DNA of 64,000 nucleotides, from the NCBI RefSeq assembly GCF_032854445.1, contig NC_088303.1, forward strand, positions 19,103,501 to 19,167,500, written 5' to 3'. Shown here piece by piece: positions 23,601 through 55,247 of the stretch. The notes below the pieces were generated by a model, which searched no databases, was not told the DNA's origin, and saw nothing but the letters and a program-made list of their open reading frames with translations. A program made the position numbers and the translations under genes. Numbering within the stretch: the first letter of the stretch is position 1; every line of letters begins with the position of its first letter. The stretch comes from Liolophura sinensis. Its lineage: Eukaryota; Mollusca; Polyplacophora; Chitonida; Chitonidae.

Positions 23601-26600
23601 CGATGATGTTGTGAAACACGAATCAAATAAATCAGTCTGCACTTAATCCATCAAGCTCCCCGGGACGCAAGATAAATCTTCATGACACACTCTTATCTCA
23701 TCAACAACGTGCAATTTGACCGAATTCCACAGTGCCATACTCGATAAAGCCACAACTTGATTCTGTACAGGAACACACATCTCCGCATGCGTGCGTGTGT
23801 GTTGGTGGTGGTGGCAGGGCGTGTGTATCGGTGTGTGCGTGTGTGTGTGTGGGGGGGGGGGGGTGCTTTTGTGTTGGTGGTGCTTGCGGAGCGTGGGGGA
23901 GGGGCGTGTGTGGATGTGGTGGCGGGGCGTGTGGGTGAGTGTGTGTGAGTGTGGGGGGGGGGGATGGGGTGTTGCTTGAATATATGTGTGTTGGTGGTGC
24001 TGGCGGAGCGTGTGTGTGAGGGAGGGGGTTCGTGTGTGTTGGTGGTGGTGGTGTTAGTGGCGGGGCGTGTATGTAAGTGTGTGTGAGTGTGTTTTTTTTT
24101 TCGGGGGGGGGGGGGGGAGGTGGTGATCGCTGACGGTAAAACTCCGCGCGCTTTATCCATATTCCTGCCCAAAGACATATCAGCGAAACATTTTTGAGCA
24201 CGCTGTTAAACACCAATAAAATAAATATAAACTAATATACTTAGATAAATTAATGACAAAGCACAGGTAACAGCCACCTAACCTAGGTTAGCGAAACAAT
24301 GACTATTGATTGATTGGTTGGTTGATTGATGTATTGACAGATTTGGTAATTGAACCTCGATCAGCGCAGGTGTTCCGCTAAATTTTGTATTCTGGTGATA
24401 TAAACGTATAGATATTAACGTACCAGTAAGAAAACGAACTATGTTCGATGATTCAGGAGAGCGATGTAACGAAGTACACTGTAATTATTCCAAAGAATAA
24501 CACGTCATACGCATGCGCACGTAATCTTTCGATCAGGTCATATGCTATTTCCATGGCTCTCCCTGACTTTTCATGACGATATCTGTTGCCTTTACCGTTT
24601 TTTGTAGATTAAGTCGTGATCGAAATTCGGTAATTATGTCGTTCATGTCGTTTGACAAGAGAAACTTTATAGGCATCTACATGTAATTAAACTATACATG
24701 CGCTGTTATTTTAAGCAGATTATATATACATATAACTTATTTTTCAATCAGTGAATTGTCCTTGTGCCGTTATTTTGAGAGCAACATTCTTTATCTTTTT
24801 AATTCTGAAATGTACCAAGGTATCAAACGACAATTGTCTTATAAAAAGCTTGCAATGCAGAGAGTGCGGTAAACCGACATCTAGCCGTTGAATAGAGCTA
24901 CGTACATGGTTCAGCTGCACTGGCTCAGTCAGTTTATAAAAGTAAACGCTTTAAAAAAGCTATTAGCGATATGTTTAGATGATTACCGTAAATTCTTGTC
25001 TTAGAGAGCACAATTTAAAAATCCATCAATCTTACAAAAGGTGACCGACAATTATGCCTCGGAAATATCCTTAGTCATCAAACCGACAAGTGATTGGTTC
25101 GTTGTCCTGCATATGCAAATATTTGCGACCTGAGTGCTCCAGTTTTTTCATAAAGCAGATGTGTTCGATTCGATTGAAAACAATCTGCATAAATGACCAT
25201 TTCGCCCTAGCCAAACAGGAAGCTACCTCTGAATGCATGACTATGTACTGTTTGCCCTCCACATTAGCATGGGCTCTAATGTTTATACATGCACTACTCA
25301 AAAATGTTAGCATTAAACCCCAACGAGAAACAGACAGAGCCGACATATATATTCAACATAAAAAAACTACATCAGATGTTAGAATTGCCTTTAAAATTTA
25401 TTTTTGTCGAAATAAACACAAGATCTCCATGAATTTTGACTTTTTTACAGAGCTTATCAACATTTGTTGGGTTCACCGAGGTCTCCTTCTGTCCGCGATG
25501 GTTATGATTCATGAGTGGAGTATAGTATAATTAAAGACGTACAGCATAGAGAGTAAAACCAGCCCAGCGACAACAGTGATAGCTGGCAAATAGTCACACC
25601 ATACCGGCGATAAACGGCCTTTTGTCAGTTTACCTCAGTCAGGGTTTTACTCTAACTTGGCATAGCAAACTGTAAAGGATATAAGCTTCTAACCGTTATG
25701 TGACTCTTGTAGTTACGTATGCCATAGATTTAATTAACCTGGGACAGTGTATTTGTGACGTTTCCCATCATGATACATAAGATGTAGAGATAATTAATAA
25801 CTAAATTTGACATCATCAGTCTTAGAAACTGAACTGTAAGTTCTGTAGACAAGTACATGGATTAATGGATTCCGTTATCTTGATTTATGACTTCATTTTG
25901 TAGCATTAGACATTCGTAACATGACGCTTACAAAGTTAGAAATAATTGAGGACATGCAGTTATTAAGGAAGGGCTTGTAGCTATAGCACGCGATTAAATA
26001 AAGAAACCTAAGACCTGCGGAGCCGTTAAAGGGACATGGCGGTTTTCTTTTTTTTAGCTGTGCGTTTTGATCTTTTCTACTTTTGCAATTGAGTTTTTCT
26101 TTCCTTTAAGCAACCTTTGTTAGGTGCCCGACAAGCGTCCCTCATATTATGCCGCCTCCGAATCAGCCACAGCTGGATTCGAGATCGCGATCTCATTGCA
26201 AAGCGTTAATCGGACTTAAGCTTAATATATTACGACGATACTCTTCTAATATGAACACTGACAATAAATATTTCACTGAAGAGGAAAATTTACCCCTTTT
26301 TTTCTTTCACAGAAGCTTCTTTCTGGCGACAAATGGCGAATGCAGATTTACAGAAAATTTTGGACAGACAGAGCAACAACAACGTTGCCAAGAACGTGAT
26401 CCTATTTGTAGGGGACGGAATGGGAGTGAGTACGGTGACTGCCGCACGGATCCTAAAGGGACAGAGGAAGGGGCAGAGTGGAGAGGAGGAAAAACTCTCC
26501 TTCGAGGACTTCCCGCATGTCGGTTTGTCTAAGGTGAGAGAGGCGGGAAATTCATATAATCCGAAATTACACTTCGCAGAGAGATCATGCATTCTGTCAC

Positions 26601-29600
26601 TTAGTCTCGTGTCATTTGATAGAAAACTCATATTGCAATGACCCCTTTTGGGGAAAGTGAATTCGTAGAATTTTTCGCTTTTTCTTCTTCTTGGGGGCCT
26701 ACACATAAAATAAGTCCTGTAACGTAGTTGGTGTTGACATATGCGTGCTTCCATACAGTTTACCGAGAATACCAGTATCAAAGTAGATCTTACATTCATT
26801 CCACTGATCTCTGCATATACTACGCGCGCTGTTAGCATAGAGGCCTGTATCGGTAGCTTTTCTGGCGGTATTATGGCGCATGCTCGCAGCGACTATTAGC
26901 CCTGAACCAATGAGACCGTATGTTCCAGCCCAACCAACTCTCCAGCTCTGGCTCCACAGCTTTAGGTCAAGCGGTTTATCAGGTATCTGGCGAAGGTCTG
27001 GTTTACATCGTGCACTCCAGTTACCTCCATACATACATCTGGTTGCTATTATAAATGCAAGATTCTCAAGTAAACATTGAAGATAAAACAGTTTAGCGAA
27101 CGAAAAAAAAATATAGCCTACTCTTACCTTACACATTCTGGTGGCGTAGTGATCAGAGCGTCTGCCTCGTAAAGGGTATATTTAGATCCGGATTCAATCC
27201 AGAACCATATCAAAAACTTTGCCATGGGTAATCTTAGCACTACTTGGGCTAAGCAAAAGAAGAATAGGCCAAGTAGTGGTCGACCTGGTGTCGAGTATAT
27301 GTGTCTCGGTGGGGCTAGGTGTTTGTTGCCTTGAACATGGCATTCCAGTGAGGCAGTCTTATGAGTACATCGGCATTAGGGCCGACTAGGGTCCACAGAG
27401 GCATTGTCGAGATATGACCGAAATAAAGCTTGTAGCCACGTTAAACATCAATTATACTGACAGACAGTTGATACGTTAATATTATTTGATAACACAAGTA
27501 ATAAGTCAATGCAGTGAAGACAAGAGAAGGCATATTCGTTTGCTGTGTTTTTCACGTTTGTACCTTACCCCTTTCAATTCTTTTCGTTTTAGGGTGGTTG
27601 ATGTTACTCAGCGGAAGTGAACTTTTTCACCGCTGCCGTTTTTCTTTCTTGGAGAACTATGAATTTAAATGTAAAAGTGTCGCGCACCTCTCCTCAAAAG
27701 TTCATCTGTTCAGAGTATTATCACCGAGGTATTTGACACCCGTGGAGTTGGATATGGGCCTGCATGTACCACATGATTCAAACTGAGTAGTTTCTTAAAC
27801 GAAAAGACAACAAATGATAAAATACTTGTTATTAAGGAAGTTTGGCCGTAACAGAAAACGGCTACAGTCAATTTTTATTATGTACTCGGTAACTAGACAT
27901 ATAAATCACCATTTAATATTAAATTCTTACGAGGCCAAGGAATGTCATATTAGCGAAACCGGAAACGCGACCAGCACCAGTCATTAGTACCATGTCCGCT
28001 GCTTAACAAAAAGGTAAACAGGGATAGTGTGACGACACAGGGCAAACAGGGGTGTTGTCCATTTATAGAAATAACTAAGAATTAAGAATTTACAAGACTA
28101 AGCTGATAACATGGTTGCACTTCCGGTTTTCACGATGTGAGCTTTTTTTGTTTAATTTGAATTGCTATAACTCAATTATACAACATCAGAAAAATGAAAA
28201 GCTACGAATTTAAATTTTGGATGAGATACTTCATCGATATGTTCTTGTATTTTCGTTTTCACTATTCCTAGAGATTTCAACCCCCTGTCTCTTCACCTCA
28301 TTCATATCGGTTAAGAGTCTACTTAGAGAAGACTATAAAGGCTCAATAATGACAGTACTTCCCAGCCTTGGACTATGTCAACTAATACCTACCAATACAC
28401 ACACATGGCACTAAACTTCAAAGCCTGTGGTACAATAAATCAGAAAAATGCACCAAAAAGCCAGAGTAATAAGATCGACAAAATTATGACTACAAAATAA
28501 CTAGAATTACTTGACTACAAATGATATTTGTGCCCTGTATCCAAATGTGTCGGATAATTAGAAACCTTTAGTTAGAAGTCAGAAGTTCAACTTGTAACTT
28601 GAAACTAGAAGAGGTAAACTAATTCTTGAAGCGAATTCTACTTTGAAGCTTTATGTAACTTCTAACTAAAAGTCTGATGTTTTGTCTTGCTACAGACGTA
28701 CAGCTTGGATTATCAGACTCCTGACTCTGCGGCGACGGCCACAGCCTTCCTGGGTGGGGTGAAGACAAAGAGTGGCGTGCTAGGCTATGATGGTCGGGTG
28801 AAGTACGGCTATTGTAACACAACGAGTCCCCAAGCAGAAGTGGACAGCATCGTGCAATGGTCCATAGCTGAAGGTAAGCTGATAGTCAACAACTACAGTA
28901 CCGAGATCATGCAGTTAGCTTCGAAAGTATTTCCAACATTTGAGTAGTTCTCTTGTGACCTCTAATATACATGAAGTTAACATTACTGCATTTTTTTACC
29001 TAACCCTGTGTAATCTATGGTGCTAGTAATTTGCTACTATTAAAGCATTTGCATGAACAGTTAACATAAGACCGAAGTTGGCAAAAGACCGAATTTCACC
29101 TAGCTACGTGTGAACATTCATTAACTATCACACTGTTGTCAGGAGCTGCTTTCGTTTTACTCTCTTTGGTATAATCTTATTATATTGTATTCCTGCATAA
29201 ATCGACAAATCTGGTGGACTAGTCATCTCCGAGGCCTGGTTCCCTTGCATTGTTTTCATATGGTTGAACGTAATGACTATACAGCATTTTGAGTAATTCT
29301 AGACCAGTGACACCTGATTCATTGCAGTTAACATCACTGCATCTTTTTACCTAATTCTGCTTCAGCCATGGCGGTAGGGATGTGTGTAAGTTACTTATAT
29401 TTAAGAATAAAAATTTCAGTTACGTAAATTGACAAGAGGCCGAGTATCACGTTTTACATGTTGCCATTTGCCAACTGCGACATGTCGCTGCTTTAGTGTA
29501 ACAATGCTATATTTATTGGTGTGTTGCGCTGTAGGAAAGTCCACAGGCCTAGTGACTACAACCCGGGTGACCCATGCCACCCCAGCGGCGGCCTACGCCC

Positions 29601-38600: not shown

Positions 38601-39332
38601 CGTCTTCATTCAAAGGAGCAATTTGTTTAGGAAAAAGGCTGAAAAACTACGTACCGCTACCAAAATTATGAGATAATTCGCTGCACCACCTTCAGTGAAG
38701 ATTATGTATCTGGTTAATGTTACTTGCAAAACTCTGAAAATGACACGCATTCATTCGTTTGACTATTGCATGCTTAATTCTTGTTAAGGGCCTTACATGT
38801 GTCTGTTGCAGGCCTAATTCTTAAGGGCCTTGCATACTGTCTGTTGCAGGCCTAATTCTTGTTAAGGCCCTTACATGTTGTCTGTTGCATGTCTAATTCT
38901 TGTTAAGGGCCTTACATGCTGTCTGTTGCAGTCGGGAATTCCTTTCGACAAGAGACGGCTGTTCCTATGGACTCGGAGACTCACTCGGCTGAGGATGTGG
39001 CAGTGTATGCCCGGGGGCCTATGTCACACCTGTTCACCGGGGTACACGAACAGAACATTATCGCCACCGCTATGGCATATGCTTCGTGTGTCGGAGCCGA
39101 CAAACGCCACTGTGAAAGTAGATTAACCGAGACATCAGCATCGCCTACCGTGCCGTTTCGAACGCCTAACGCCCCATCCTCTTCTCTGGATGAATCAGAG
39201 ACAACTACGGACACAAATCTCTTCAGCACAATAAAAGTTTTGGAAGGCTATCCAGCCAGCGCTGCTCCTTCATTACAATTCATGCCCGTTTGGACACTAC
39301 TCTTAACGAGTTGCTTAGTTTATAATTTGTAA
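20626..39332 (+). CDS. ALPL: Alkaline phosphatase, secreted/GPI-anchored (10 coding exons)
   Basis: Hydrolyses phosphomonoesters at the outer cell surface at alkaline pH. Coding exons: 20626-20686, 26313-26533, 28696-28873, 29535-29710, 30375-30485, 32284-32386, 34982-35113, 36514-36705, 37993-38121, 38932-39332. They sum to 1704 nt, an exact 567-residue frame, and all nine introns are GT-AG. Residues 1-18 form a signal peptide. Asp55 lies in FVGDGMG, the nucleophile Ser105 in PDSAATAT, Arg164 and His167 in TTTRVTHAT, Glu327, Asp332 and His336 in [11 protein letters not shown], Asp373/His374 in TADHSH and His473 in GVHEQN, so the two-zinc, one-magnesium site is complete. The last ~15 residues are hydrophobic after a Ser/Thr/Pro-rich stretch, as in GPI-anchored members. 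Length fits the 520-570 residues usual for animal enzymes. The residue two before the catalytic Asp-Ser pair is Thr, where the family signature has Ile or Val. Residue roles are from the known family; boundaries are read from the sequence. Confidence 0.94.
21385..21580. repeat. Minisatellite, ~21-base unit
   Basis: About nine degenerate units of the form ccaactttagtcaagtcgta. No coding signal. Confidence 0.8.
22915..23235. repeat. Degenerate ~15-base minisatellite
   Basis: Units resembling gaggtactcttatca recur through the interval (gaggtaccactatca, gaggtactcttgtca, gaggtacccttacca). Confidence 0.75.
23785..24120. repeat. G/T-rich tract with poly-G runs
   Basis: GT-rich ~60-base units carry repeated gtgtgtgttggtggtg blocks and several runs of 8-13 G. 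The opposite strand reads as Pro/Thr/His-rich frames of 160-170 codons, which are artefacts of composition. The tract has G-quadruplex potential on the + strand. Confidence 0.85.
25550..25653. mobile_element. Small fold-back (MITE-like) element
   Basis: Begins AGAGTAAAACC and ends GGTTTTACTCT, an 11-base inverted repeat around ~80 bases that also hold gccttttgtcagttt. A decayed relative lies at about 32405-32490 (gcctcttgtcagttt), and part may also be recognisable near 16110-16180. Non-autonomous; no frame inside. Confidence 0.55.
26313..26533 (+). CDS. ALPL: Alkaline phosphatase exon 2
   Basis: Encodes residues 21-94: a helix ([14 protein letters not shown]), then the [15 protein letters not shown] strand with the metal-binding Asp55, then [13 protein letters not shown]. 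Acceptor tttctttcacag; donor AAG|GTGAGA; phase 0 at the end. Confidence 0.95.
26534..28695 (+). other. Phosphatase intron 2
   Basis: Holds a tRNA-headed SINE (27141-27468). A 145-codon frame on the - strand (27136-26699) has no recognised motif and is within chance length. Otherwise nothing seen. Confidence 0.7.
27141..27468 (+). mobile_element. tRNA-headed SINE, family 3
   Basis: The head (ggtggcgtagtgatcagag, then gatccggattcaatcc) resembles pol III A and B boxes. The body includes catggcattccagtgaggca. A diverged relative at 13622-13885 shares the B-box phrase and the ggcgttccagttaggcagct stretch. Confidence 0.6.
28696..28873 (+). CDS. ALPL: Alkaline phosphatase exon 3 (catalytic serine)
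   Basis: Carries the nucleophile Ser105 in TPDSAATAT, which becomes the phosphoserine intermediate. Acceptor tcttgctacag; donor GAAG|GTAAGC; one base carries over. Confidence 0.96.
29535..29710 (+). CDS. ALPL: Alkaline phosphatase exon 4
   Basis: Encodes [20 protein letters not shown] and the following loop. Arg164 contacts phosphate in known structures and His167 is in the Mg-site loop. Acceptor tgcgctgtag, donor ATACAG|GTATAT. Confidence 0.96.
29780..29930 (+). mobile_element. SINE family 1, internally deleted copy (phosphatase intron 4)
   Basis: The head (ggggtctccgtgtccgagtg) runs into ctggccgccgacgtataagt, atattcttgagtacggcgta and an AAAT tail. The central part is missing. Confidence 0.8.
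30375..30485 (+). CDS. ALPL: Alkaline phosphatase exon 5
   Basis: 37 codons beginning [12 protein letters not shown], the conserved strand and glycine loop of the family. Acceptor cattatatag, donor ATACAG|GTATGT; phase 0 at both ends. Confidence 0.94.
31110..32095. repeat. 46-base minisatellite, ~21 copies (phosphatase intron 5)
   Basis: The unit begins cacagacaaccagctacaca and ends acacataaataccatgt. Copies are 85-100% alike by eye, with variant units (ccgcctac, cagcagcac) recurring. It fills most of intron 5. Confidence 0.93.
32284..32386 (+). CDS. ALPL: Alkaline phosphatase exon 6
   Basis: Encodes [20 protein letters not shown] and then a stretch ending VDYLLG, matching the family's WNR...VDYLLGLF segment. 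Acceptor ttgttttgcag, donor GTTAG|GTAAGT. Confidence 0.93.
32986..33211 (-). mobile_element. SINE family 1, near full-length (phosphatase intron 6)
   Basis: Reverse orientation: (TTTA)n, gattggtgttttaagccgta, ggccagcattatggtgggag, then ctgcgctagcgcgctaacca. Contains the tRNA-like head and conserved core. Confidence 0.88.
33293..33960 (-). mobile_element. SINE family 2, split by a nested insertion
   Basis: The 3' end (tgagtgcttggggtttaacg) is at 33297, and the rest resumes at about 33663 with ttttcagtcatatgacgacg. It runs to the tRNA-like head (accgctctaccaactgtgct). A ~325-base element lies between. Confidence 0.85.
33326..33650 (+). mobile_element. Short interspersed element D, copy 3 (nested in a SINE)
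   Basis: Shares tgaacagttgcaattaaagc, the ccttgcgattatcgac stretch and a gaatgtcggacttgacgc end with copies at 1796-2119, 18334-18600 and 34632-34901. It sits inside the SINE at 33293-33960, so it inserted later. Confidence 0.75.
33962..34580 (+). pseudogene. Decayed reverse transcriptase of a retroelement (Penelope-like?)
   Basis: The frame reads [10 protein letters not shown], shifts frame at a T run, then continues [30 protein letters not shown] (the YxDD catalytic box) and [14 protein letters not shown] to [15 protein letters not shown]. One in-frame TAA lies at 34189. The order of GxPxGTNxxP, YIDDL and a following (F/Y)LDL block is that of a reverse transcriptase often seen in invertebrate genomes, probably Penelope-like. 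Frameshifts and stops make it non-functional. It lies in phosphatase intron 6. Confidence 0.7.
34632..34901 (+). mobile_element. Short interspersed element D, copy 4
   Basis: Starts cgttggatatatgaacagtt and ends gtttcgacgcatag, the same two ends as the inverted copy at 1796-2119. Confidence 0.75.
34982..35113 (+). CDS. ALPL: Alkaline phosphatase exon 7
   Basis: Encodes [12 protein letters not shown] through [17 protein letters not shown] to GYFLMVEG. Glu327 (LMVEG) is the Mg-site glutamate of the family. Acceptor cttccatacag, donor GAAG|GTAAAA. Confidence 0.95.
35329..35491 (+). mobile_element. SINE family 1, 3' part (phosphatase intron 7)
   Basis: ggtctgtcagcaacctgctg through ggtttcctcccatc and ttgagtacggcgta to an AAAT tail. 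The head is missing. Confidence 0.85.
35589..35849 (+). mobile_element. SINE family 1, full-length reference copy
   Basis: Complete: a tRNA-like head (ggcctccgtggctcagttgg), B-box-like gtgagttcaagtccagct, core ctgcggatggtcctgggttt and ggtttcatcccaccataatg, then tgagtacggcgtaaaacacc and a (AAAT)n tail. Head, conserved core and tail fit the tRNA-derived SINEs known from molluscs. The exact Repbase name is not claimed. Confidence 0.92.
35850..36513 (+). other. Rest of phosphatase intron 7
   Basis: Open frames lie on both strands (35986-36273 +, 36368-35916 -), but none shows a known motif or splice context. A decayed mobile-element frame is possible. Confidence 0.5.
36514..36705 (+). CDS. ALPL: Alkaline phosphatase exon 8 (zinc site)
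   Basis: GGRIDHGHH gives the first zinc ligands (Asp332, His336) and TADHSH the second zinc site (Asp373, His374). Acceptor tatttttcag, donor CTCG|GTAAGT. Confidence 0.97.
36706..37992 (+). other. Phosphatase intron 8
   Basis: 1.3 kb in which I see no gene, RNA or clear repeat. Confidence 0.6.
37993..38121 (+). CDS. ALPL: Alkaline phosphatase exon 9
   Basis: Encodes [20 protein letters not shown] and then LYGNGPGY, the family motif after the zinc site. Acceptor ttgttttctcag, donor CACGT|GTAAGT; one base carries over. Confidence 0.94.
38765..38931 (+). repeat. Tandem ~41-base repeat duplicating a 3' splice site (phosphatase intron 9)
   Basis: Four units of the form cctaattcttgttaagggcc... 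each end in tgtctgttgcag or a variant. AG dinucleotides in the acceptor context end at 38811, 38849 and 38931; in the third unit AG has become AT. Only the last leads into the open frame. The two upstream acceptors would add a short peptide and then an in-frame TAA. Confidence 0.85.
38932..39332 (+). CDS. ALPL: Alkaline phosphatase exon 10 (C-terminus, GPI tail)
   Basis: Starts [20 protein letters not shown], then [14 protein letters not shown] and GVHEQN, whose His473 is a zinc ligand. A Ser/Thr/Pro-rich linker follows, then a hydrophobic end ([17 protein letters not shown]) and TAA at 39330. The tail fits a GPI-attachment signal. Its acceptor is the last of four tandem copies of an acceptor-bearing 41-base unit. 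Confidence 0.95.
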
Positions 39333-41989: not shown

Positions 41990-42113
41990 CATCGTATGTG
42001 GGAAGGTCTGTCAGCAACCTGTGGACTGTCTTGGGTCTACCCCGGGCTCTGCCTGGTGTCCTCCCACCATAATGCTGGCCGCCCTCGTATAAGTGAAATA
42101 TTCTTGAGTAGGG
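41990..42113 (+). mobile_element. SINE family 1, 3' part
   Basis: gggaaggtctgtcagcaacc through ctcccaccataatgctggcc to attcttgagta; no head. Confidence 0.85.
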
Positions 42114-42280
42114 TTCCTGACAGAGTTGTATTATCGGATTGAAAACATTAAATAACTTTATTTTATGAATGGATCCAAAAGTACGGATGATCAATTTTGT
42201 TATCCTATATTTCAACTACAACCTCAAACATAGTTTGCGTCATGTTAGTAACTCTTTGCCATCAGTTTAAAAAGAACTCT

Positions 42281-42442
42281 TGCTGTGAGTTCAAGTCCAG
42301 CCCAGGCTGGCTTCCTCTTCGGCCGTACGTGGGAAGGTCTTTCAGCAACCTGCGGATGGTAGTGGGTTTCCATGGGATCTGCCCAGTTTCCTCCCACCAT
42401 AATGCTGGCCGCCGTCGTATAAGTGAAATAATAAATAAATAC
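42281..42442 (+). mobile_element. SINE family 1, partial copy
   Basis: tgtgagttcaagtccagccc through ctcccaccataatgctggcc and an AAAT tail. Confidence 0.85.
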
Positions 42443-43471
42443 ACAGGAACTCCCTTTTCCGAATCCTGCGGTAGTTCATGCGCCACCTTAACATTAGAAA
42501 TAGATAAATTAGTCGATCTGAATCGGCCACGGCTTTTAAGTGTCAGGAGGTGTGTTAGGTATCAGTCGAAAGTTGCTGGTTTTACTCCGAGCACTCCGGT
42601 TTCATCCACCCAAAAAATATGACCGTTGTCATAGAATTGAAAAATTCTTATAAATGTAGATTGCAAAAAATATTCATAATTAATGAGTCTTTCTTAAATA
42701 TTTCAAGGATCCGTCCTCTCGTAAGTTAAACTGTCACATATTTCGGTTATCACAGTTTTACTTGAGTTCCGCATTGCCAAACACGTATGACTTATGTAGA
42801 GCTAAGGTCAAACAGAATGACTCAGCAGAATCCCTGAGGTGGTTATGAAGCTTCCCTTGTTAAGGGAAAACTTTGGACTCCAGTGAATCTGGGAGTCAAA
42901 GGGAGACTCCATCCCCAAACTGTATGTTGTCAGTCAGCCCAGATTCCTTTAGAAAGCTGTCCCTACAAAAAACATAAGAACCAGTGTTAATTTTTTGATA
43001 TGCTGACGGTAACACTGCTACATGTATGTGCAATTTTGTATCAACCACGAGAAATGATGCTCCAGCTAACGAAGATTTCAAAAAATAATACAAATATGCA
43101 AATATACACAATGTTTTTAACGTCTTTATAAAAAGAACGAGGATAAAAACAGTTTTTATTTCAGTTTAGAGGTGCATGGAATATTTTTGACAAATATTCC
43201 CTTTAATGCTCATGCCTACACTATTATGTCCATTAACAATTTAAAACAGTTTTCAATGACCTTTCTCTTGATGATTGCTTCATTTTATGGGATTTTTCCC
43301 CCTTTTTATAACACTCAAGCCTAGTGTATCATATCACTAACTTCTATTTGAAATTTGGCGATGGTTTTGCACAGTATCAAACACACAACACTGGACATGA
43401 TGAACATAGGCCCACATAATAGTATATTTATTAATAATGCATTTAATATATATATTATAGTTATAAAATAG

Positions 43472-43990: not shown

Positions 43991-43996
43991 TTTATT
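43991..43996 (-). promoter_or_regulatory. Poly(A) signal of the RNA-ligase-like gene
   Basis: AATAAA on the - strand, 35 bases beyond the stop codon, in a T/A-rich context. Confidence 0.6.
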
Positions 43997-44030: not shown

Positions 44031-44129
44031 TTACCACGTAACGGGAAACTGATCAGCTATGTCAGCAGGTCCTAATTCCCCATTCTCCATTTTCCTCACC
44101 ACCCACTTGGTGAACCGCACTCCAAGTTC
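44031..44129 (-). CDS. RNA-ligase-like exon 12 (C-terminus)
   Basis: ELGVRFTKWVVRKMENGELG then PADIADQFPVTW and TAA at 44031. Acceptor gtatattgtag. Confidence 0.8.
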   Translation of the reverse strand, partial: ELGVRFTKWVVRKMENGELGPADIADQFPVTW

Positions 44130-47100
44130 CTACAATATACAGGATATACGAACACAGCTACAATAAAGAGCCCCCATCACACCACGCAGAACACATTTGA
44201 ACACAATCAAATCTAGTCCCATATTCTAAGGACGTAGCTTTAACGTCAGTAACAATATTAGGATTTACATCACAAACATGGGAAACCCAGAGTAGTGCTC
44301 AAATCTCAATCCCCAAATCTCTTCATTTAATGTTGGCTGGGTCAACAAATTAACATTAGCCAAAGGCTACTTACGATGAGAGGACAAACAACGACTAGTT
44401 CGATAAGAAAACAAGCGTGAAAGTGACATCCACAATTATTTTTTTTTCCATATACAAATATAAAAGAAATATATAATAAGATATTTGGAAGAAAAAAAAA
44501 GATATGTACGTATATATAGTATGTCGACATAGGCCTATATAATCCGTAAAAAAAATCTGTACATATACTAACTAATACAATTAAAATGCGCAGAAATGGC
44601 TTCATTTAAAACATGTTACTTTTATAACATGAAGTGACAGTAAAATTGGTGAAAAATTATAATAATTATCATCGTGGTGACATCAATGGCCATGCTTCAT
44701 ACAGGTGAGCTAAGAAGCAGATGTTCATTAGCATTAAAGGTAGCAAAAATCTTACACAGAAGTACCTTCCATTTACTAATGTAGGTCTCCTCTAGTCCTA
44801 GCCAGTCTTGTATTTCTGTCAGCCTTCTTTCCACCTGTGAACAGAATTAAACCACAGTATGGTCATTTCAAACTGCAGAGCACAGAATATCACTGTATTT
44901 CTTGGATGTGGAAAGAAATCTCGCTTTGAGAAGCCTTCCCACAATAGAAACTTCCCATCAGAACGCGGCAAGCGACAACCAAACCAGGGGAAGCTGGATT
45001 TTATTGTACAGTCCCAACGAATAAAGGAGATTGGTCTTGGCTTTAGATTTCCACACTGTAATATGCTGTGCTGACAATGGGAGATCGGCAGAAGTCTGAA
45101 GTGGTAGATATTACATCATTTCCATAACACTGAATGTTCCAAAAAATGTTCCACTGCAGCTTCAACATGCACCACTGTATCACAGTAAAGTATAGACCAC
45201 ATATGTAACAGATCAAACAGTTTTACAATGAGGAAATCTCAATTCACAGCAATCTGTCAACATCCCACTGGAATGATTTTCATATTAGTACATTTTGCTA
45301 AAGGATTCAGAGATATGTCATTCAAAAGGAAATATGTCTAGCAGCAAGAGCACAGAATAAATGAAACAGCATGTATCAGCTCTGAGAACAGCTATCCTTG
45401 TTCTTAATCACCATTGTGACTTTGACCGCTCTAAACTGCAAGATTCACTCACCTGCAATTCAGTTATTTAGGTTGTGTTCCACTCAAGATTTCATAGGCA
45501 AGCATCACGAAAAAGGTACTTTAATAACAGATAATTCTGATTGTCTGTCATCGTAGTTGATATTACTTGTTTCCATTCATTATTAAAAGAATAAACAATG
45601 TGAAGATTACCCCAACACAAACTCTCCTTCAGCAGAGGACCGTAGCCGTAAGTTTAGTCAACCTCTGCCGAAAAGCCTGCTAATCTAGCATACGGTGACA
45701 TAGCTATTTAACATAATCCTGGCCAACCAATGGAAACGACTCTACTATCTCCTGGCGGGAAGTCGAAAACAGTAAATAACAGCAGACACCTATAGCCTTA
45801 ATATACAATAATCATGCGATTCGATGGCCAGGCCAAAGAAATGGAAAGACTACGTGGATTTACAAGGTTTACTGTGGAATTTGTTTAGCACAGCTGATAT
45901 CCACATTGAATAATCGTGTTGTGACAGCCCAAAGGCGTGATTTGACGATGAAAAGCAAGACCTCTGAGGAGCCCCTGGACGCTTTCCACTTCTTGATCAC
46001 ATCTCACGTTATAAAAGGCTATATGGAAAGAGGAAACCTGCAAACGAGGAGGGGGGGGGAGTATCTGCAAGGAAATTAAAGAGCAAGGGGAAACGAACAA
46101 ACAGAGAGTGCCTCGAATGGCCGCCGGAAGTCCATCTCCCCACATTAAGTTGAGATTTAGAGCTATTTGAATATTAAATATAATTACTTACAACCCTTTC
46201 TGACAAACACGGGCCTCGGCTTCTTCCCTCGCATTTGTTTTCTTCGGTATATATCTTACTTTTGTCAGTTCTTGCTTGCTGACGAATATTAATGAAGACA
46301 AATCCCCACTTCAAGCAATGAAAATTTGTAGTCTTCCGCGGAGCGTTCATTGGCTAACACTGATTACATCACCGTCCACTTGTATATGAATGTGATAGGT
46401 ATTTCGACAGACCGAAAACCGGTAGGGTACCGGTAGGTTAGGACGGTCTGGTTTAGAGAGACTACCCAACACATTGTCTATCACTGCATTACTGGCGTAA
46501 CATAAACGTGGTGAAAATCCACGTGTAAATCCACGTGTCCGCTAGTTTATTTTTTCTGAAGGATCCTGAGTCAAGCAACAGTGTCAAGTGATTCTAAAAT
46601 ATGGGTTGGCACAATTCACATCCTTCAGATGCAAGGTTTTCATTCATATCACAAGTTGGTCTTCTATATTTTAATCAAAATCAAACGTGGTTATAATCAC
46701 CTCATAATGAGACGAAACCCAATTCTGTAGGGTGCAGCCTTGAAATATTGAGGCCAGTACATGCGAAGAGTTCCAGTTTGTGAACGCAAGAGTCTGTATT
46801 CTGACAGCCAAGTTGGGAAGAATGAGACAGATCTCTGATCTACATTTATCTTTGCCTTTTGGCCATAAAGTCGCAAATGAAGAAATAACGAAGACATTGA
46901 AATCGAAAGGGGGGTAACCCATACATACCTTGCTCAATGCTCCAGGTAGAGAGAAAGTCTCTGGTGATTTCACTAGAATTCCAGTTATCCCACGTGCTTT
47001 TTCTCGTATTGCTCGGCAAAGAATATACCTGGAATATCGATAATTCAAATACCATTTCATCATGGAAATAATTCCATATTCCTGTTAGAAGACATTTTCA

Positions 47101-50100
47101 GCAAATCAATGAGGAAATTGCAGATGAAATTAATTATATTAATGTTTGAACTCATAACAATATACACATATATTAACACATAATACGTAAACAATTGAAC
47201 AAGTGCTAATATTTAGACTAAAGTATTATTTCTATGTTTTGTCTGCCATGGTTAAAAGAATACATGTACATACGTTACCAGAAGTCTACTAACGATATGC
47301 TCCGCTTAATAGACTTCTGACAATACTCACCAGGCTGTTTTTTTCTTGAGTAGACCAATCACATTAGATGATCCATCGAGAAAATAAAACACTTCTCCCT
47401 CATAATTGTAACCACGACGAACCTGGGCACAAAAGAAAAAATCATACAAACGTTTTACCACTGATTTTGAAAACACAAGTCAACAGATGTCACTAAATGT
47501 AATGTTTGGAGACAATAATGTCTGAAATACCCAAAATCACCACATAAAAATGGTAAATGAAACTGATGACATCATCATGTCACGAAGATAGATTTTTCAG
47601 ATTTCATATATTTCGGCCACTATGAAGAATAATTGATCACCTTATATTTATATTTTTATTTTACTAGTATTATTTCCCAAAATCGATGAATATGTACATA
47701 CTGATTCATATTAAATAGAACAAGCTTTACATTTATAAAGTTGTGGTGAGTTTGGGTCAAATAAATAAGGTGCTGTAAGATAAATTCCTCATCTAAACTA
47801 ATGATGAAACAATAGATCTTAAAGATTTACTCTTAATTTAAAGCCATCGCTCAACTGCAATTTTTTAAGTTTAACCTGAGCTTATTCAAAAACTTTACCA
47901 AATTACACCAGACAATCAGGGGGTTTAACTTGAATTTCTTGTAGTTTAAGCTTCAGAAGCAGTTTTTCACATTGTAAAATCCACGTAGGGATTTGTCATT
48001 TTACAGTATTCTTCAATACTTATATACATATTAGCACTTATCCTAATGTTGGTATATATGAATTTTGTATTACTTACATAAGATAAGATGTTGACATTAT
48101 GAAGTAAAATAGTGATAGTATGTATGTACATGTAGCAGATATATGAAATGCATGTACCGACCTACCAGAATGGTTTGTCAGCTGGGGCTGGTTTCATGAA
48201 GCTTACTTGGTGTTAAGTCACCCTTACCTAAGTGCACTTTATATCTCTACAACATACATTGTCATGGCAGTTGAGGGCTTACTAAGTCAAGTGAGCTTCA
48301 TGAAACCGGCCCCAGGTCATGACCAGCAACTCGAGTTTCACACTGGTATCCTGGGGTCAGTCTTAAGTAGAGGTAGTCACCACACCCTCTGGTCAAGTGT
48401 TTATGTTTCTGATGTGTACCAGTCATTGAAGACCACTACATACACGTAATTGCACCAACTGACATTATCCTGTGTTGAGCTACTGTTTTAATCTGACAAG
48501 ACAAGTAACATGTGTTTATGCTGCAAGAATTGATATTCAAAAGACTACTTTCCATCACAGTCTCATTGCAGCTGTTATTAAACCCATTGATCTTGCGTTC
48601 CATAAACCCTGAAACGCTGACAGACTAAACCAGAATTGCCAAATGATATACAGGGTTGTGAAGAGAAGATTCCCTAGGTTGGAGAAAAAAAGCCCATTCA
48701 ATCTATCAATCATACAAAAAGTATTCGACATGTCTGACTGAAAAACCTGTGCATGCCTGAGACATTCTGTCTTCTACATCAGAGTAAGGGATCACCTCAT
48801 ACTTTACAGTCTCTAACCCCAGACACCGTGCCACCTGAGGTAAACAGCAACAAGCAATCAAGTACATGCAATACAGATTATAAACGTAGGTCAGTAAATG
48901 ACTTATGAGAACTGCTAAGCTGATAACCTGGCTGACATACACAGTTTCTTATTTCACCATTATAAAGTCTCCAATTGACTTCCTGAAAGGAAACAAAATA
49001 CTAACAAAATTATACCAGCTAGATAGCTCGTCACTCACTAATCTTACATGTATCAGTGTAACCAGTTTCCTCCCACAGTTTGCCAAAATAATCAGTGGAT
49101 CTATTTTGCTTTTGATACATATACATGAGGTTTAACCATTTTCGTGCCATCTTTGTCCCTTTATCTGTGTCATTTGATTTATTGCAAGAGGTCATGTGAT
49201 AAACAATAAACAATGATTTACATATTACTTATGTGTATGTAACTGCTCTGAATTAAAGTATTTTAATTGTTACCCAGTCATACTGAACATGTCCTTGTCC
49301 AGGTATAAGGTATACGAATTATACTTATAGCTGCACATGTATGTACTGCCAGTCACCAATGCGGTCACTGTGAGCTCAAATCCAGCTCATGCTGGCTTCC
49401 TCACTGGTCGTACGTGGGAAGGTCTGCAAGCAACCTGTGGATCATCTTGGGTTTCCTCCAGGCTCTGCCCTGTTTCTTCCCAATATAATGCTGTCCGCCG
49501 TCCAACAAGTGAAATATTCTTGAGTACCTATCACCAATCAAAGAAATAAATATACTGCCAGTACCTCTATAGACACGTGGGGAGGCAGCGGAGACAGCTG
49601 CGTGTCAGCAGAGGGTTCCAGATCAACACTGGTCCATGTTATGAACACCAGCTTGCTGCTAGAAAAAGAAAAAAGAAAATGCCAATACAATTACTCCTTT
49701 ATTTTGCAACTTGATTTATGTTAAGACATATTTCCTATGTGCGCAGACGACAACAATTAAAAGAGGAGCGAACCATGATGCTTTGACTCGCATGCAAGTA
49801 TGAAACACCTACTATAATAAAGGCTGAAGACTTACACTCAGCCATCCTCATTGGTAATTAACAAGTCAACCCCATCAGTAGCACTTTAGACCACTAGGCT
49901 AATGGCAGCTTGTGGCTTCAAGTTAACTGTTGAGAATGTTATTAACATATGCTTAAAAGGATAATACTTTATAGACATGTCTTCCAGGCAAATTAATCAA
50001 CTGTATCAAAGTTTTCATGTTTATACATGAACCAATGTATGCATATTAATGATTATTTCTATTTGACTTAAAAGGTTCACATAATATATTGTACTTCAAG

Positions 50101-53100
50101 GAAATCATTAATTCTGACAATGATTCTAAATGTTTTCAAAGTGAAGTCAATTGTCGATTCACATACAAGAAATTGACTCAAAAAACTTTGTCCTTCAATA
50201 AAAAACTGACCTGCTCTTTACAAAGAGAAGCAAATCAAGAAATCATGAGAGCAGTGACAAACAACTGTGATAACTGTGAGAGAGAGATCTACTGAGAGAT
50301 ACAAGATGTCTGCTAGAACAAAGCCCTCTTAACCTTACAAGCATATAAATATCATGAACATGTGAGCCAGCAGTGTTGGCTGCCACTGTAGTTAAAGTGC
50401 TACTTCAGCCTTAAGAGAAGCTACACAGAAATATTAAAATGATACGAGGGATACCCTAGGGAACAGAGCTAACACCATTGTTCAAAAAGATTTACGGCAA
50501 ATAACACTTTTTAACTCGTATAAGTGGAGAGTCCTCAAAAACAAAATCATCGGCAGTTTCCGTAAAATTTTCCTGACGTGACGTGATAATGTTCCTTATG
50601 TGACGATGAGTCAAGTAGATATGATGTCGGGTAAGGCAGTTATGCTGGAATAACGTCATGTGTTTGAAAGTACAACGTCATTTGCTGCTATACGTCAGGG
50701 ATGGGTGACGCCAAGTGTTCTTGCATGACGTCACACCATGCAAAATTGGAAACAACAGAAAACTTTTGTTTCCGCACTATCCTCCAAAACTAGTGACAGC
50801 GGTTTTACTACACTGCTATTTTTTAATAATTTAGGAAAGCAATTCGGACTATCTCAATCCTTATCATTTAACCCTCCTTTTAAAACATTCAGGTCTTCAC
50901 ACTGTACTAGCTCTTATATGCATACAACACTAAGATGTTTACGTGCAACCGGGATCCACGCTCCAAACCACCCTGGCTGTTTCCAGCAATTTATTTATTT
51001 ATTTATTTGACTGCTGTTTTATGCCAGTCTCAAGATTATACGTTGGCAGCCAGCATTATGGTGGGAGGAAGTCGGGCAGAGCCCGGGGGGAACCCACTAT
51101 CTGCTGGCTGCTGACAGAGCTTTCCACATACGACCGGAGCCAAATGAGGATGGGCTGGACTTGAACTGACTGTGACCACATTGGTGAGAGGCTACAGGGC
51201 CACTGTGCTGCACAAGCATGCTAACCACGGAGGCCACTGTGTCCTGTAAACTTTACCTGGAGAGGTGTGACAGATTCTCCACATGTTGATGGGCAGGGCT
51301 GAGGATCTCAAAGATAGCAGTGAACCGAGTGATAGCCAGAAACTTCAGCAACCTTCAACACAGGGGCTACATGTCATTTAAACGTCATGGAAACATATCA
51401 GTGCTATAATTGCCTGCAAAATCATGCACGGCTCAAGCATTCATAATGTCTTAAAATACACTTTTTTTCTATAATGGTCTAACTCCATGTATTTGTTGTT
51501 TGTTCCATATTTTTTTTTCATAATTATTTTTCTATAAACACAATCTGTAGCTTTGTGAGATATAATAATGATACTAATGCAAACAGAACATCCAAATTAA
51601 TTGTTTTCAGAATATGCAAATAAGAAGTACAAATGTTATTTTTGGTTCTTTTTTTTTAACCATGTAACAAATTCATCCTGCAAAAATCCCATCAAAAAAC
51701 ATTCTGTTTTTTTGTTTTTTGTTTGCAAGAAACTGTTGCATGGGAGCCTGACCTGAGTTTGTCTTCTTCATTCATGGCCTCAAGAGCTGTCATTATTGCT
51801 TCACACACTTCCTTAGCTATTTTAAACCTAGGGCCACTGTACAGTTCAATATCCTCTGAAATATACAAAAGATCACACATCTGAAACAAAGCTTAATTTA
51901 CACACATGTATTTCCCATACTTTCAAAGGTAACCTCATCATACTTACTATAAAAGTGTGCAATGCTTTAGCAAACAATTTTGCAAGGACTGGACACAAAA
52001 GAGGTGAGCTCAAATAAAAAATGACACCTGTTCACTTGCATTTTACATACACAAGTTGCAAGCAAGCTGTTGTTTTCCTGTGTGAAGTGACTTTCCAATG
52101 CAAGTTTATTTTTGGCTGCAGATTCACTAGCTCCCTAGCGTTTTGTTGACACTAGAGTTAAAAAGACATTCATAGTTTCGAGAATCTGGGTACCTCGCTA
52201 GGAGCAGAGGTGATAAATAACATGGGGCTAAATGGGTGAAATATTACTTTTTGCTGATACCTAAAGGTTAAAGTAATGCAAGACACTGAAACTATAATAT
52301 TTGAAAGACATGTACTTTCAGATTAGTTTTTCAGAGAGAATGCTATGTTTTTCATGGAAAAATCTTATTCAGGGCATATCTCGCTTGGGTTAAATTTGCT
52401 TTGTTTCATACCTCCAGTACCTCCAGTCATGTGACCATGGAGTGTTCTGATGACTGGCTCAGAGCAGCTACATGTATGAAATCACTGCAAACCCTGAATA
52501 TTAGTCCCTGATGCTATAAGACAATTCATTAAATCTGAGGTAATATTCGATGGTTACTGAGGTTGCACTCATTTGTCCATAACACAACCTTCAAATATCT
52601 CTCCACAGGCCCACACAACAGTAACCTAAAATACCTGTAAGCTGGCAATACTCCCTTCTTCTGGCACTGGCTCACCTTTTCTCCTGATTAACATATGCAC
52701 GTTTTTTGACCCTCCACAAATGAAGAGCTCTCCATCAATCTCCAAACAGCTTAAGTGAGCTGCCTCACCATTGGCTTTCCTTGTGCACACGACTTTGTCT
52801 GTCTCCTCCAAAGACTGGAAGATAATGAGGAAGAAGGATTAATGTGATCCTCAACAGACTAAGGTAGGATACTCAGGTAAACAGGCCATGGGACAGCTGT
52901 TTAGTGGGTACTGTAATTCTTCAACCTTTTTGGATGTTTGTAAGGTGTTTATTCAAGCATATTCTGAAGACATTATACTGTGTAAACTGATAAAATTCTA
53001 CTTTTCATGAGGTGCTAAAATTTATTTGAAATAAACTTAAAAATTTGAATAAATTACACTGAAAGTAGCATACTAGCTCTTTCGTATAAGAAAACGTTGA

Positions 53101-55247
53101 GGAATTAGGGTAAGTGATTATTTCAAGAATCCATCCCTATTAGCGGCAGTACTTTATCTAATTTTGGGTGTGAGGACATAACAAGTACTTGTTGACCTGG
53201 TGTCTCTACATTGTGACTTTATGATCAAGTCATCTTGTCTGACACCATCATGACACTGATGTCCAGGGATGCAACTCTATCAATTTAGCAACACTGGCAT
53301 TCAGCAAGAGAGGATATAACAAGTACTTGTCAACCTGGTAGCTGGGTGGGGCCTGACCCTGATCGCGTCAATGACCTAATACTGAAAAATGGTGCTGTTG
53401 ATCATTGGTACCTTCGTAAAAAATTTCTTCCAAGTAAAGTTGTCTCCCTTTTCCTTATCATCATCATCTCCAAGTCCACCTGTAAATTTTTTGAAGGCAT
53501 AGACGACGCAGCACATGCACCTTTCTGGTCCACCTGAGAGGTCCAGAAAACAATTACCTCTGGCCACCTGCCAATAAATAAAAACAATTGTGAAACAAAA
53601 AAACCATATCTGTCCATCATCATGTGTACAACATCTTTCATGAATCACAGAACTGATTCAGAAAACAAATGCCTCTAGCCACATGCTAATGAATAAAACC
53701 ATTCATGTCACTACAAAAAAATCATATCTTAAATCAAGATAAACCCATTATCAAATTACGCATACAACATCTTTGAAGAATCACAGAACTAATCCAGAAA
53801 ACTCTGACCAACTCCCAATGAATAAAACATAACTTCAGCCTAAAACACTAATGATGTATACTGGTACTCATGGCACCATACTCACTTACTCAGTGATATT
53901 CCCATACTTTTTAAGAGCACAGAAAACCTATTAATCGTCACAACACTACTTTTATATCCCACCTACTACTAATACAAAATCTGTCCAGAGACCATAGACT
54001 AATTTACCCGACTTTAGGTGTATGTCCAATTACTAAGGCTATTATACTGATGTTAGCCACTGGTATTTGATGACTGAGGCATACTACTTCAATATCTTGT
54101 CTGAATCACCTTAACTATCTTACCTTTTCCCGTATGTCTTTGTTCTTTTCAAAGATGGCATCATCTGGTCCTCGTCTGGTGAACACGCGAACATCACTGA
54201 GCTCTCCAGTGTACGGCTCTGGTAGTATTCTCAATGGCACAGGTGTGCTGACCACTTTCAAATGTTCTCGCTGCTTTGCCCATTTTAACCACCTGAAAAT
54301 GTACAACAAACCATTGCACGTTATTATGGTGTATACAGGTTGGAGAAGTAGTCATATTCATTTCACATCATGAAGTGCATTGTGGCAGTGTAAATTGGAA
54401 TCCTGGGCTGATCAACAGTCATAATATTATAGTATTCGCAAGATTCAATATGTATTTATTTATTTAATTGGTGTTTTATATCACGGCGACCAGCATCATG
54501 GTGGAAGAAAACCTGGCAGAGCCCAGGGAAAACCCACGACGATCTGCACGTTGCTGTCAGACCTTCCAACGTACGGCCGGAGAGAAAGCCATCATGAGCT
54601 TGAAGATTCAAATATGATATTAAAGGCACCAAGAACAGTTTTAGTTCACAAACATGTTACATTTACCATTAATACGACTTCACCGTAAAGTTGATTTATC
54701 TATTCATTAAAACCTACAGTGCTATCATAAAGAAAATGCTTTATCAAAATGAAGATTGTCATTATGTTCCGCGAATATATCGTATTCTGCTTTTCACCAG
54801 CTAGGTCTATACATGATCACATACTCGCATATATACTGGGGTAAGCAGCAATGATATTTCTACCAGCACGTGCTGTGACTAAGACCAACATCTATCTTCA
54901 TCTCACGTACGAGTTAGTTACGTTATACTGCTCCCTAGCGGCAATGGACTAGCAAATGCCGACTCATTTTTAAATCAGATTCCGCCCGTTCCATTGTTTA
55001 AAAACAAGAACCTTTTAGCTTTTTCCTGTTCTCCTGGTTTACATTTATTACAGGAAGTATTTAGCCTCCTTAGGTGAAGATCAATGTCGCCAATGTGTTC
55101 TGCCTCAGCCAATCTTCTCAGAATGTCATCTATCACGGTAATACTTCCTGAAGTTTCATTTTCACCTGACGTGGGCCTACAATCGCCGACAACAACAACA
55201 TCTCTGTTTTTCACGAGAGGCTGCGGGGTTCCATCACTGTCAGCCAT
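44031..55247 (-). CDS. RNA-ligase-like nucleotidyltransferase (Rnl1/Trl1 type), 12 exons
   Basis: Predicted to join RNA ends through a lysyl-AMP intermediate. Exons 5' to 3': 55247-55012, 54292-54124, 53567-53412, 52814-52676, 51855-51753, 51352-51257, 49658-49565, 48834-48757, 47422-47332, 47028-46929, 44834-44766, 44129-44031; about 476 residues. All superfamily motifs occur in order: motif I RKANGEAAHLSC (nucleophile ~Lys200), a GGSKNVHMLIRRK block, motif III TAIFEIL (~Glu283), motif IV NYEGEVFYFLDG (~Glu365), motif V GLLKKK followed by WYILCRAIREKA. KANG in motif I is the form used by fungal Trl1 tRNA ligase. No kinase or phosphodiesterase domain follows; ~90 helical residues end in DQFPVTW. 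Two problems: exon 9 is one base short, and exon 8 needs a GC donor. Superfamily certain by motifs; RNA as substrate is inferred. A capping enzyme or DNA ligase is less likely because their flanking domains are absent. Confidence 0.82.
44766..44834 (-). CDS. RNA-ligase-like exon 11
   Basis: 23 codons, VERRLTEIQDWLGLEETYIS then KWK, helical C-terminal part. Acceptor ttctgttcacag, donor TGGAAG|GTACTT; phase 0 at both ends. Confidence 0.8.
44835..46928 (-). other. Intron 10 of the RNA-ligase-like gene
   Basis: 2.1 kb. Apart from the possible + strand coding remnant at 45824-46079, I see no gene or clear repeat. Confidence 0.6.
45824..46079 (+). pseudogene. Possible decayed coding fragment, opposite strand
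   Basis: ATG at 45824 opens MARPKKWKDYVDLQGLLWNL and stops after 29 residues. A second frame then continues with protein-like sequence (TAQRRDLTMKSKTSEEPLDA, then FHFLITSHVIKGYMERGN) to a stop at 46077. One frameshift would join them. No family recognised; it could be a nested pseudogene or chance. Confidence 0.3.
46929..47028 (-). CDS. RNA-ligase-like exon 10
   Basis: (W)YILCRAIREKARGITGIL then VKSPETFSLPGALSK. WYILCRAIREK continues motif V. Acceptor cgatattccag, donor AGCAAG|GTATGT. Confidence 0.85.
47332..47422 (-). CDS. RNA-ligase-like exon 9 (motifs IV and V; one base short)
   Basis: VRRGYNYEGEVFYFLDG is motif IV, and SSNVIGLLKKK the start of motif V, whose lysines act in adenylation. 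As written the run of six A ends the exon in phase 1, but exon 10 needs two carried bases to make the conserved Trp-Tyr. One extra A would give KKKTAWYIL. Either an assembly slip or a real frameshift. Confidence 0.78.
47423..48756 (-). other. Intron 8 of the RNA-ligase-like gene
   Basis: Contains the fold-back element at 48184-48313. Otherwise AT-rich sequence without a recognisable feature. Confidence 0.6.
48184..48313. mobile_element. Fold-back element with 20-base inverted ends
   Basis: Begins ggggctggtttcatgaagct and ends agcttcatgaaaccggcccc, inverted with one mismatch around ~90 bases. No frame. Similar in design to the element at 39735-39870. Confidence 0.7.
48757..48834 (-). CDS. RNA-ligase-like exon 8 (probable GC donor)
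   Basis: VARCLGLETVKYEVIPYSDV then EDRMSQ. Acceptor tttacctcag. Phase 0 is required by exon 9. The GT donor at ACAG|GTTTTT leaves phase 1, which hits a stop in exon 9, whereas TCTCAG|GCATGC gives phase 0 and a natural join MSQ-VRRGYNYEGEV. Confidence 0.7.
49349..49551 (+). mobile_element. SINE family 1, 5'-truncated copy
   Basis: caccaatgcggtcactgtga through gctcatgctggcttcctc and aagtgaaatattcttgagta to a short A-rich tail. It lies in intron 7, just downstream of exon 7 of the RNA-ligase-like gene. Confidence 0.85.
49565..49658 (-). CDS. RNA-ligase-like exon 7
   Basis: SKLVFITWTSVDLEPSADTQ then LSPLPPHVSIE. Acceptor ctttttctag, donor ATAGAG|GTACTG; ends in phase 0. Confidence 0.78.
50574..50736. 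promoter_or_regulatory. Cluster of CRE/ATF-like TGACG motifs
   Basis: In 163 bases: TGACGTGACGTGA (50574), TGACGATGAGTCA (50601, ending in an AP-1 word), AACGTCAT (50652), AACGTCATT (50674), ACGTCAG (50692), GTGACG (50705) and a perfect TGACGTCA (50725). bZIP factors of the CREB/ATF/XBP1 group bind such words. Whether it is an enhancer is inference. Confidence 0.4.
50990..51238 (-). mobile_element. SINE family 1, near full-length
   Basis: Starts with (TTTA)n and ctgctgttttatgccagtct, has ccagcattatggtgggagga and ggacttgaactgactgtgac, and ends in the head (gctaaccacggaggcc). Confidence 0.85.
51257..51352 (-). CDS. RNA-ligase-like exon 6 (motif III)
   Basis: LLKFLAITRFTAIFEILSPA then HQHVENLSHLS. 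IFEIL is motif III; its Glu contacts the nucleoside ribose in known ligases. Acceptor tgtgttgaag, donor TCCAG|GTAAAG. Confidence 0.82.
51753..51855 (-). CDS. RNA-ligase-like exon 5
   Basis: DIELYSGPRFKIAKEVCEAI then MTALEAMNEEDKL, mostly helical. Acceptor gtatatttcag, donor CTCAG|GTCAGG; two bases carry over and pair correctly with exon 6. Confidence 0.82.
52676..52814 (-). CDS. RNA-ligase-like exon 4 (motif I, nucleophilic lysine)
   Basis: SLEETDKVVCTRKANGEAAH holds motif I (KxN/DG), whose Lys forms the covalent AMP adduct in this superfamily. GELFICGGSKNVHMLIRRK follows. Acceptor ttatcttccag, donor GAAAAG|GTGAGC; one base carries over. Confidence 0.88.
52815..53411 (-). other. Intron 3 of the RNA-ligase-like gene
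   Basis: 597 bases. The phrase acaagtacttgt with acctggt occurs twice (about 53180 and 53320), a small local duplication. Nothing else seen. Confidence 0.5.
53412..53567 (-). CDS. RNA-ligase-like exon 3
   Basis: 52 codons, VARGNCFLDLSGGPERCMC through YAFKKFTGGLGDDDDKEKGD to WKKFFTK. The KFF before motif I resembles the KFF segment that precedes the KANG motif in fungal tRNA ligases. Acceptor ttattggcag, donor ACGAAG|GTACCA. Confidence 0.8.
54124..54292 (-). CDS. RNA-ligase-like exon 2
   Basis: Encodes WLKWAKQREHLKVVSTPVPL through TGELSDVRVFTRRGPDDAIF to NKDIREK. Acceptor cattttcag, donor AAAAG|GTAAGA; ends in phase 0. Confidence 0.8.
54453..54606 (-). mobile_element. SINE family 1, partial (intron 1 of the RNA-ligase-like gene)
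   Basis: (TTTA)n, ggtgttttatatcacggcga, ccagcatcatggtggaagaa and cgtacggccggagagaaagc. Confidence 0.8.
55012..55247 (-). CDS. RNA-ligase-like exon 1 (N-terminus)
   Basis: ATG at 55247 opens MADSDGTPQPLVKNRDVVVV and runs to GEQEKAKR. The only donor giving the phase needed by exon 2 is AAAAG|GTTCTT, a weak site; it yields a smooth helix KAKR-WLKWAKQREHL. An unseen exon between them is possible. A CCAAT box (CCGCCAATTAG on the - strand) lies about 65-75 bases upstream. Confidence 0.55.

Follow-up and report, generated by a model that had tools for sequence, protein, structure and literature searches.

The window, i.e., the whole stretch of 64,000 nucleotides of Liolophura sinensis DNA that was analyzed, contains a gene of 12 exons that very probably encodes an RNA ligase of the BfRNL type (stand-alone, ATP-dependent, 5'-3'), which would do the sealing in a "heal and seal" pathway divided between separate proteins. 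The gene has an intact frame, carries four nucleotidyltransferase motifs in order and matches one Pfam family, and RtcB, RLIG1, Tpt1-like and Clp1-family pieces and candidate healing-enzyme frames are present in the same genome.

Gene structure

The gene runs from 55247 down to 44031 on the minus strand, and its 12 exons (Table 1) splice to 1455 nt, a length divisible by 3, with 484 codons free of internal stops (0 found) and then TAA. Every one of the 11 introns has a GT donor and an AG acceptor (11/11 for each). Nine donors were read directly from the open frames, and those of exons 1 and 8 were chosen. The sequence-only reading had placed a gene at 44031-55247; the 12 exons were recovered there with the frame intact, and these coordinates fit the coding part because the frame ends in W-TAA at 44031, with AATAAA at 43996-43991.

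Table 1. Features of the ligase-like gene (window coordinates)
Feature	Position	Strand	Remarks
Exon 1, with ATG start	55006..55247	-	open frame; weak in-phase donors; 3' end at 55006 or 55012
Exon 2	54124..54292	-	AG/GT borders; phase fits
Exon 3	53412..53567	-	AG/GT borders; phase fits
Exon 4, with motif I (RKANGE); K202 is the predicted nucleotidyl lysine	52676..52814	-	
Exon 5	51753..51855	-	
Exon 6, motif III IFEIL	51257..51352	-	aligns with NFEFV of T4 Rnl1
Exon 7	49565..49658	-	
Exon 8	48739..48834	-	3' end picked by phase and profile score
Exon 9, motifs IV (YEGEV) and V (LLKKK)	47331..47422	-	align with IEGYV and HFKIK of T4 Rnl1
Exon 10	46929..47028	-	
Exon 11, C-terminal part	44766..44834	-	
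Exon 12, with stop TAA	44031..44129	-	frame ends W-TAA at 44031
AATAAA, likely polyadenylation signal	43991..43996	-	begins 35 bases beyond the stop

Exon 1 has two candidate donors, both weak and 6 bases apart (GTTTTT at 55005 and GTTCTT at 55011), and a small additional exon may lie between exons 1 and 2. For exon 8, three of the possible in-phase cuts were scored against DUF7920 using a 347-residue core; the longest gave 46.5 bits, compared to 40.8 and 38.2 bits. With the in-phase donor TCA/GTCAGA (48739), the protein runs to TGFS. A 476-residue draft, used in some of the searches below, cut this exon at EDRM, where no fitting donor exists. Exon 12 contains TG/GTAAGC, a possible donor towards another exon; it was taken as the gene end because of the in-frame stop and AATAAA.

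GC content at codon positions 1, 2 and 3 of the spliced frame is 0.52, 0.40 and 0.44, respectively, and that of the introns is 0.37. In the 609 Mb assembly, the core protein (exons 3-12) hit 10 pieces with an E of 1 or less, and each of them lies within the ligase locus. Judged on sequence features, the gene is real, intact in frame and single-copy as far as searched.

Neighboring features

Two frames on the plus strand correspond to the start and the end of an alkaline phosphatase (26255-26641, E 1.4e-17, and 38907-39332, E 2.8e-15); they probably belong to a single gene, which lies upstream in window coordinates relative to the ligase gene. A repeat is found in both orientations at about 42000-42600, 49380-49540, 50930-51250 and 54450-54690 of the window, and at 628-840 and 2672-2983 of locus L007; some copies lie inside ligase-gene introns, and others in the interval that separates the two PNK/CPD frames described below. 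Its six-frame products have the words YVGRS and QHYGGR in common, and it resembles what we take to be a SINE common in molluscs. At 2610-2975, the plus strand has a coiled-coil-like open frame, whose match to Bacillus_HBL (21.3 bits, below the cut-off of 29.1) is most likely a chance coiled-coil match.

Motifs and family models

In the 484-residue product, KANG starts at residue 202, FEIL at 284, EGEV at 373 and LLKKK at 389, and the candidate catalytic residues are K202, E285, E373 and K391-393. Motifs I (KxxG), III, IV and V stand in this order in one chain, which is the scheme of covalent RNA ligases, and KANG is the form that motif I takes in fungal Trl1. The sequence-only reading had listed RKANGE, IFEIL, YEGEV and LLKKK in order over twelve exons, all of which are present in the spliced frame; its picture of a stand-alone protein also agrees with the Pfam scan (E up to 10, with filters that remove most matches above ~0.1), in which no kinase or phosphodiesterase domain was listed.

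The sole Pfam match of the spliced protein above its cut-off is DUF7920 (PF25536), a family without a named function in Pfam (E 6.1e-14; 52.2 bits versus the curated cut-off of 27; 50.8 bits for the 476-residue draft). The match spans residues 121-403 and positions 45-314 of the 315 in the profile, leaving the first 120 and the last 81 residues outside. Neither RNA_lig_T4_1 (PF09511) nor T4_Rnl1_C was listed for the spliced protein at E up to 10. Conversely, all seven phage Rnl1 proteins that we scanned matched RNA_lig_T4_1, and DUF7920 was listed for none of them; therefore, proteins that share motifs are covered here by separate family models. The proposed assignment to an Rnl1/Trl1 kind thus holds at the level of motifs, whereas the family models do not bear it out, as RNA_lig_T4_1 gave no match and DUF7920 was absent from the phage proteins.

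It should be noted that the genome searches by profile have limited reach. The exon-wise search with DUF7920 gave no matches in this genome and none in the control genomes, and it is very insensitive, because the spliced protein does match that profile. The RNA_lig_T4_1 and RNA_ligase models gave no matches in the genome either, where long models can miss exon-split genes; absence of RNA_lig_T4_1 cannot be concluded from this, because the control genomes also gave none. For the 476-residue draft, nothing was listed in NCBIfam, and the two matches to solved structures by sequence (E 0.53 and 3.3) were taken as chance. Scans of viral contigs, phages (with the draft), plasmids and prokaryote genome contigs, which reach close relatives only, found no relatives; they are uninformative on other animals because of this reach and because animal genomes lie outside the sets searched.

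Comparison with phage Rnl1 and DNA ligase profiles

Using hhalign, we compared the protein to a profile (Neff 4.8) built from 18 phage Rnl1 sequences, of which some were partial. The score was 27.45, the best of 40 shuffles reached 21.21, and the 17 other query rows scored 22.58 or below, the next best being T4 DNA ligase at 22.58; the probability given by hhalign was just 5%, with E 0.0078 in one comparison. The best alignment covers residues 266-403, i.e., motifs III-V. MAFFT placed the same three motifs in register with T4 Rnl1 (IFEIL/NFEFV, YEGEV/IEGYV and LLKKK/HFKIK), including the K-x-K of motif V, and left motif I out of register with the phage Rnl1 sequences; both proteins have W-Y after motif V. 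For phrog_562 (T4 Rnl1), E was 0.001 when the 476-residue draft was used and rose to 0.024 for the final protein.

A T4-type DNA ligase profile of 5 close sequences (Neff 1.6) gave a score of 20.42 with an alignment outside the motifs, at the level of the best shuffle (20.31). No DNA-ligase or capping-enzyme model was listed in Pfam at E up to 10, and we rejected DNA ligase as the identity of the protein. The sequence-only reading had named a best match to a DNA ligase or capping enzyme as evidence against it; what was found is a higher score for Rnl1 than for DNA ligase (27.45 versus 20.42), an uneven comparison because the Rnl1 profile holds 18 sequences at Neff 4.8, versus 5 at Neff 1.6.

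Candidate partner genes in the same genome

At 24.996-24.999 Mb of contig C4, a P-loop kinase frame with GLAGAGKS (AAA_33, 5.9e-17) and a CNPase frame (CNPase, 4.5e-39) with the H-x-T motifs HCT and HVT share one strand, the CNPase frame being 1.2 kb downstream of the kinase frame. Read as two frames, they form a candidate PNK/CPDase gene separate from the ligase. RtcB was found in five pieces at 56.24 Mb of C7, and Clp1-family pieces on C11 and C7. Four pieces of the Tpt1 family (PTS_2-RNA) are distributed over C6 and C13; Tpt1-like pieces lie at C6:467252-470071, C6:513869-514102 and C13:11219937-11220185, perhaps more copies than the single one that a tRNA splicing pathway needs. RtcB and an Rnl-type protein thus appear to occur together in one genome, which would carry the full gene list for 5'-phosphate ligation beside RtcB, with products that may cooperate.

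Proposed function and alternative explanations

If the protein is a ligase of the BfRNL type, the following steps would be expected: (i) RNA ends would be prepared by the separate kinase/phosphodiesterase of C4, possibly with Clp1; (ii) K202 of KANG would accept AMP from ATP; (iii) the AMP would move from K202 onto the 5'-phosphate at one RNA end; (iv) the 3'-OH of the partner RNA end would close the bond; and (v) the remaining 2'-phosphate would be taken off by Tpt1-like enzymes. The nucleotide, the substrate and the partnership with these enzymes are what we infer, as is a role beside RtcB in tRNA repair or splicing, or in stress mRNA splicing.

Alternatively, the protein could belong to the same superfamily of covalent nucleotidyltransferases but have another job, such as adenylation of protein or RNA without sealing, or capping-like chemistry. 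We regard this as improbable. In its favor, DUF7920 has no known function and the similarity to the Rnl1 profile is weak; against it stand the alignment of motifs III-V with Rnl1 down to the K-x-K, the lack of any listed capping-enzyme or DNA-ligase model at E up to 10, and the presence of PNK/CPD frames and Tpt1-like genes elsewhere in the genome. It is very unlikely that the gene is a decaying or silent copy, as the weak donor of exon 1 and the soft one of exon 8 might suggest, because 484 codons have no stop or frameshift, the four motifs are kept, AATAAA follows the stop, and the core protein (exons 3-12) found no second copy in the 609 Mb assembly.

An orthologue or paralogue of RLIG1/C12orf29 can be dismissed with near certainty. 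By its activity, RLIG1 belongs to the animal 5'-3' RNA ligases (PMC9931718, PMC11494293), the class proposed here, and it is reported to occur in vertebrates as well as a few molluscs (PMC9931718). In this genome, it is a distinct gene in six pieces at 59.90 Mb of C6, a contig other than that of the ligase-like gene, and its motif I is KLDG (SEKLDG). The RLIG1 model PF17720 was not listed for the ligase-like protein (Pfam, E up to 10), and tblastn of that protein against two RLIG1 loci gave one match at E 3.8, i.e., no meaningful similarity. RLIG1 identity is thereby refuted at the sequence level, and the earlier statement that the gene is not RLIG1 stands.

Under the BfRNL-type reading, a broader proposal, which we favor with some reserve, is that DUF7920 is an unrecognized animal 5'-3' RNA ligase family, and that a complete, dispersed yeast-type pathway (PNK/CPD, Clp1, ligase and Tpt1) exists alongside RtcB and RLIG1, so that a single animal would have three RNA ligase classes for different RNA breaks. 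If true, yet another animal lineage would have retained the yeast-type route or acquired it again, a function could be assigned to DUF7920 in Pfam, and the purpose of second and third RNA ligases in animals could be put to the test.

Comparison with known systems

With the T4 RNA ligase 1 family (PF09511, phrog_562), the ligase-like protein shares alignable motifs III, IV and V and the W-Y that follows; the family's own models, PF09511 and T4_Rnl1_C, are not listed for it. Fungal Trl1 and plant RNL have a KxxG ligase in a healing-sealing pathway that requires Tpt1 (PMC3400036). Each of these is a single trifunctional protein that unites the ligase with kinase and CPD, whereas here the kinase and the phosphodiesterase are found on another contig.

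The closest likeness, by description, is to BfRNL, a stand-alone 5'-3' RNA ligase of Branchiostoma floridae reported in 2010 (Englert et al.), with kinase/phosphodiesterase on a separate polypeptide, BfPNK/CPDase (PMC3400036, PMC4090602, PMC10598085). According to the available accounts, the lancelet has a complete gene set for the 5'-3' ligation pathway plus an RtcB homologue (PMC4090602) and a reported PNK/CPDase activity (PMC5434554), and the amphioxus tRNA ligase in XBP1 splicing was the subject of a 2011 study. BfRNL, known from amphioxus since 2010 in the sources cited, contradicts the initial view of such ligases as all but undescribed in animals; there are good grounds to regard the gene as a stand-alone RNA ligase of its own, but the kind is not new. 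No report of a BfRNL-type ligase outside amphioxus was among the matches listed in the open-licence literature, as far as titles and abstract openings tell.

The chiton protein resembles BfRNL in being an animal stand-alone ligase without a kinase or phosphodiesterase domain, with healing enzymes encoded elsewhere (the P-loop and CNPase frames of C4) and RtcB also present, and by this analogy the two may be orthologous. In addition to what is described for BfRNL, the chiton genome has RLIG1 and several Tpt1-like pieces. For a kind of ligase already known from amphioxus, the present case is of value because it adds an animal with the full gene set and points to a likely function for DUF7920.
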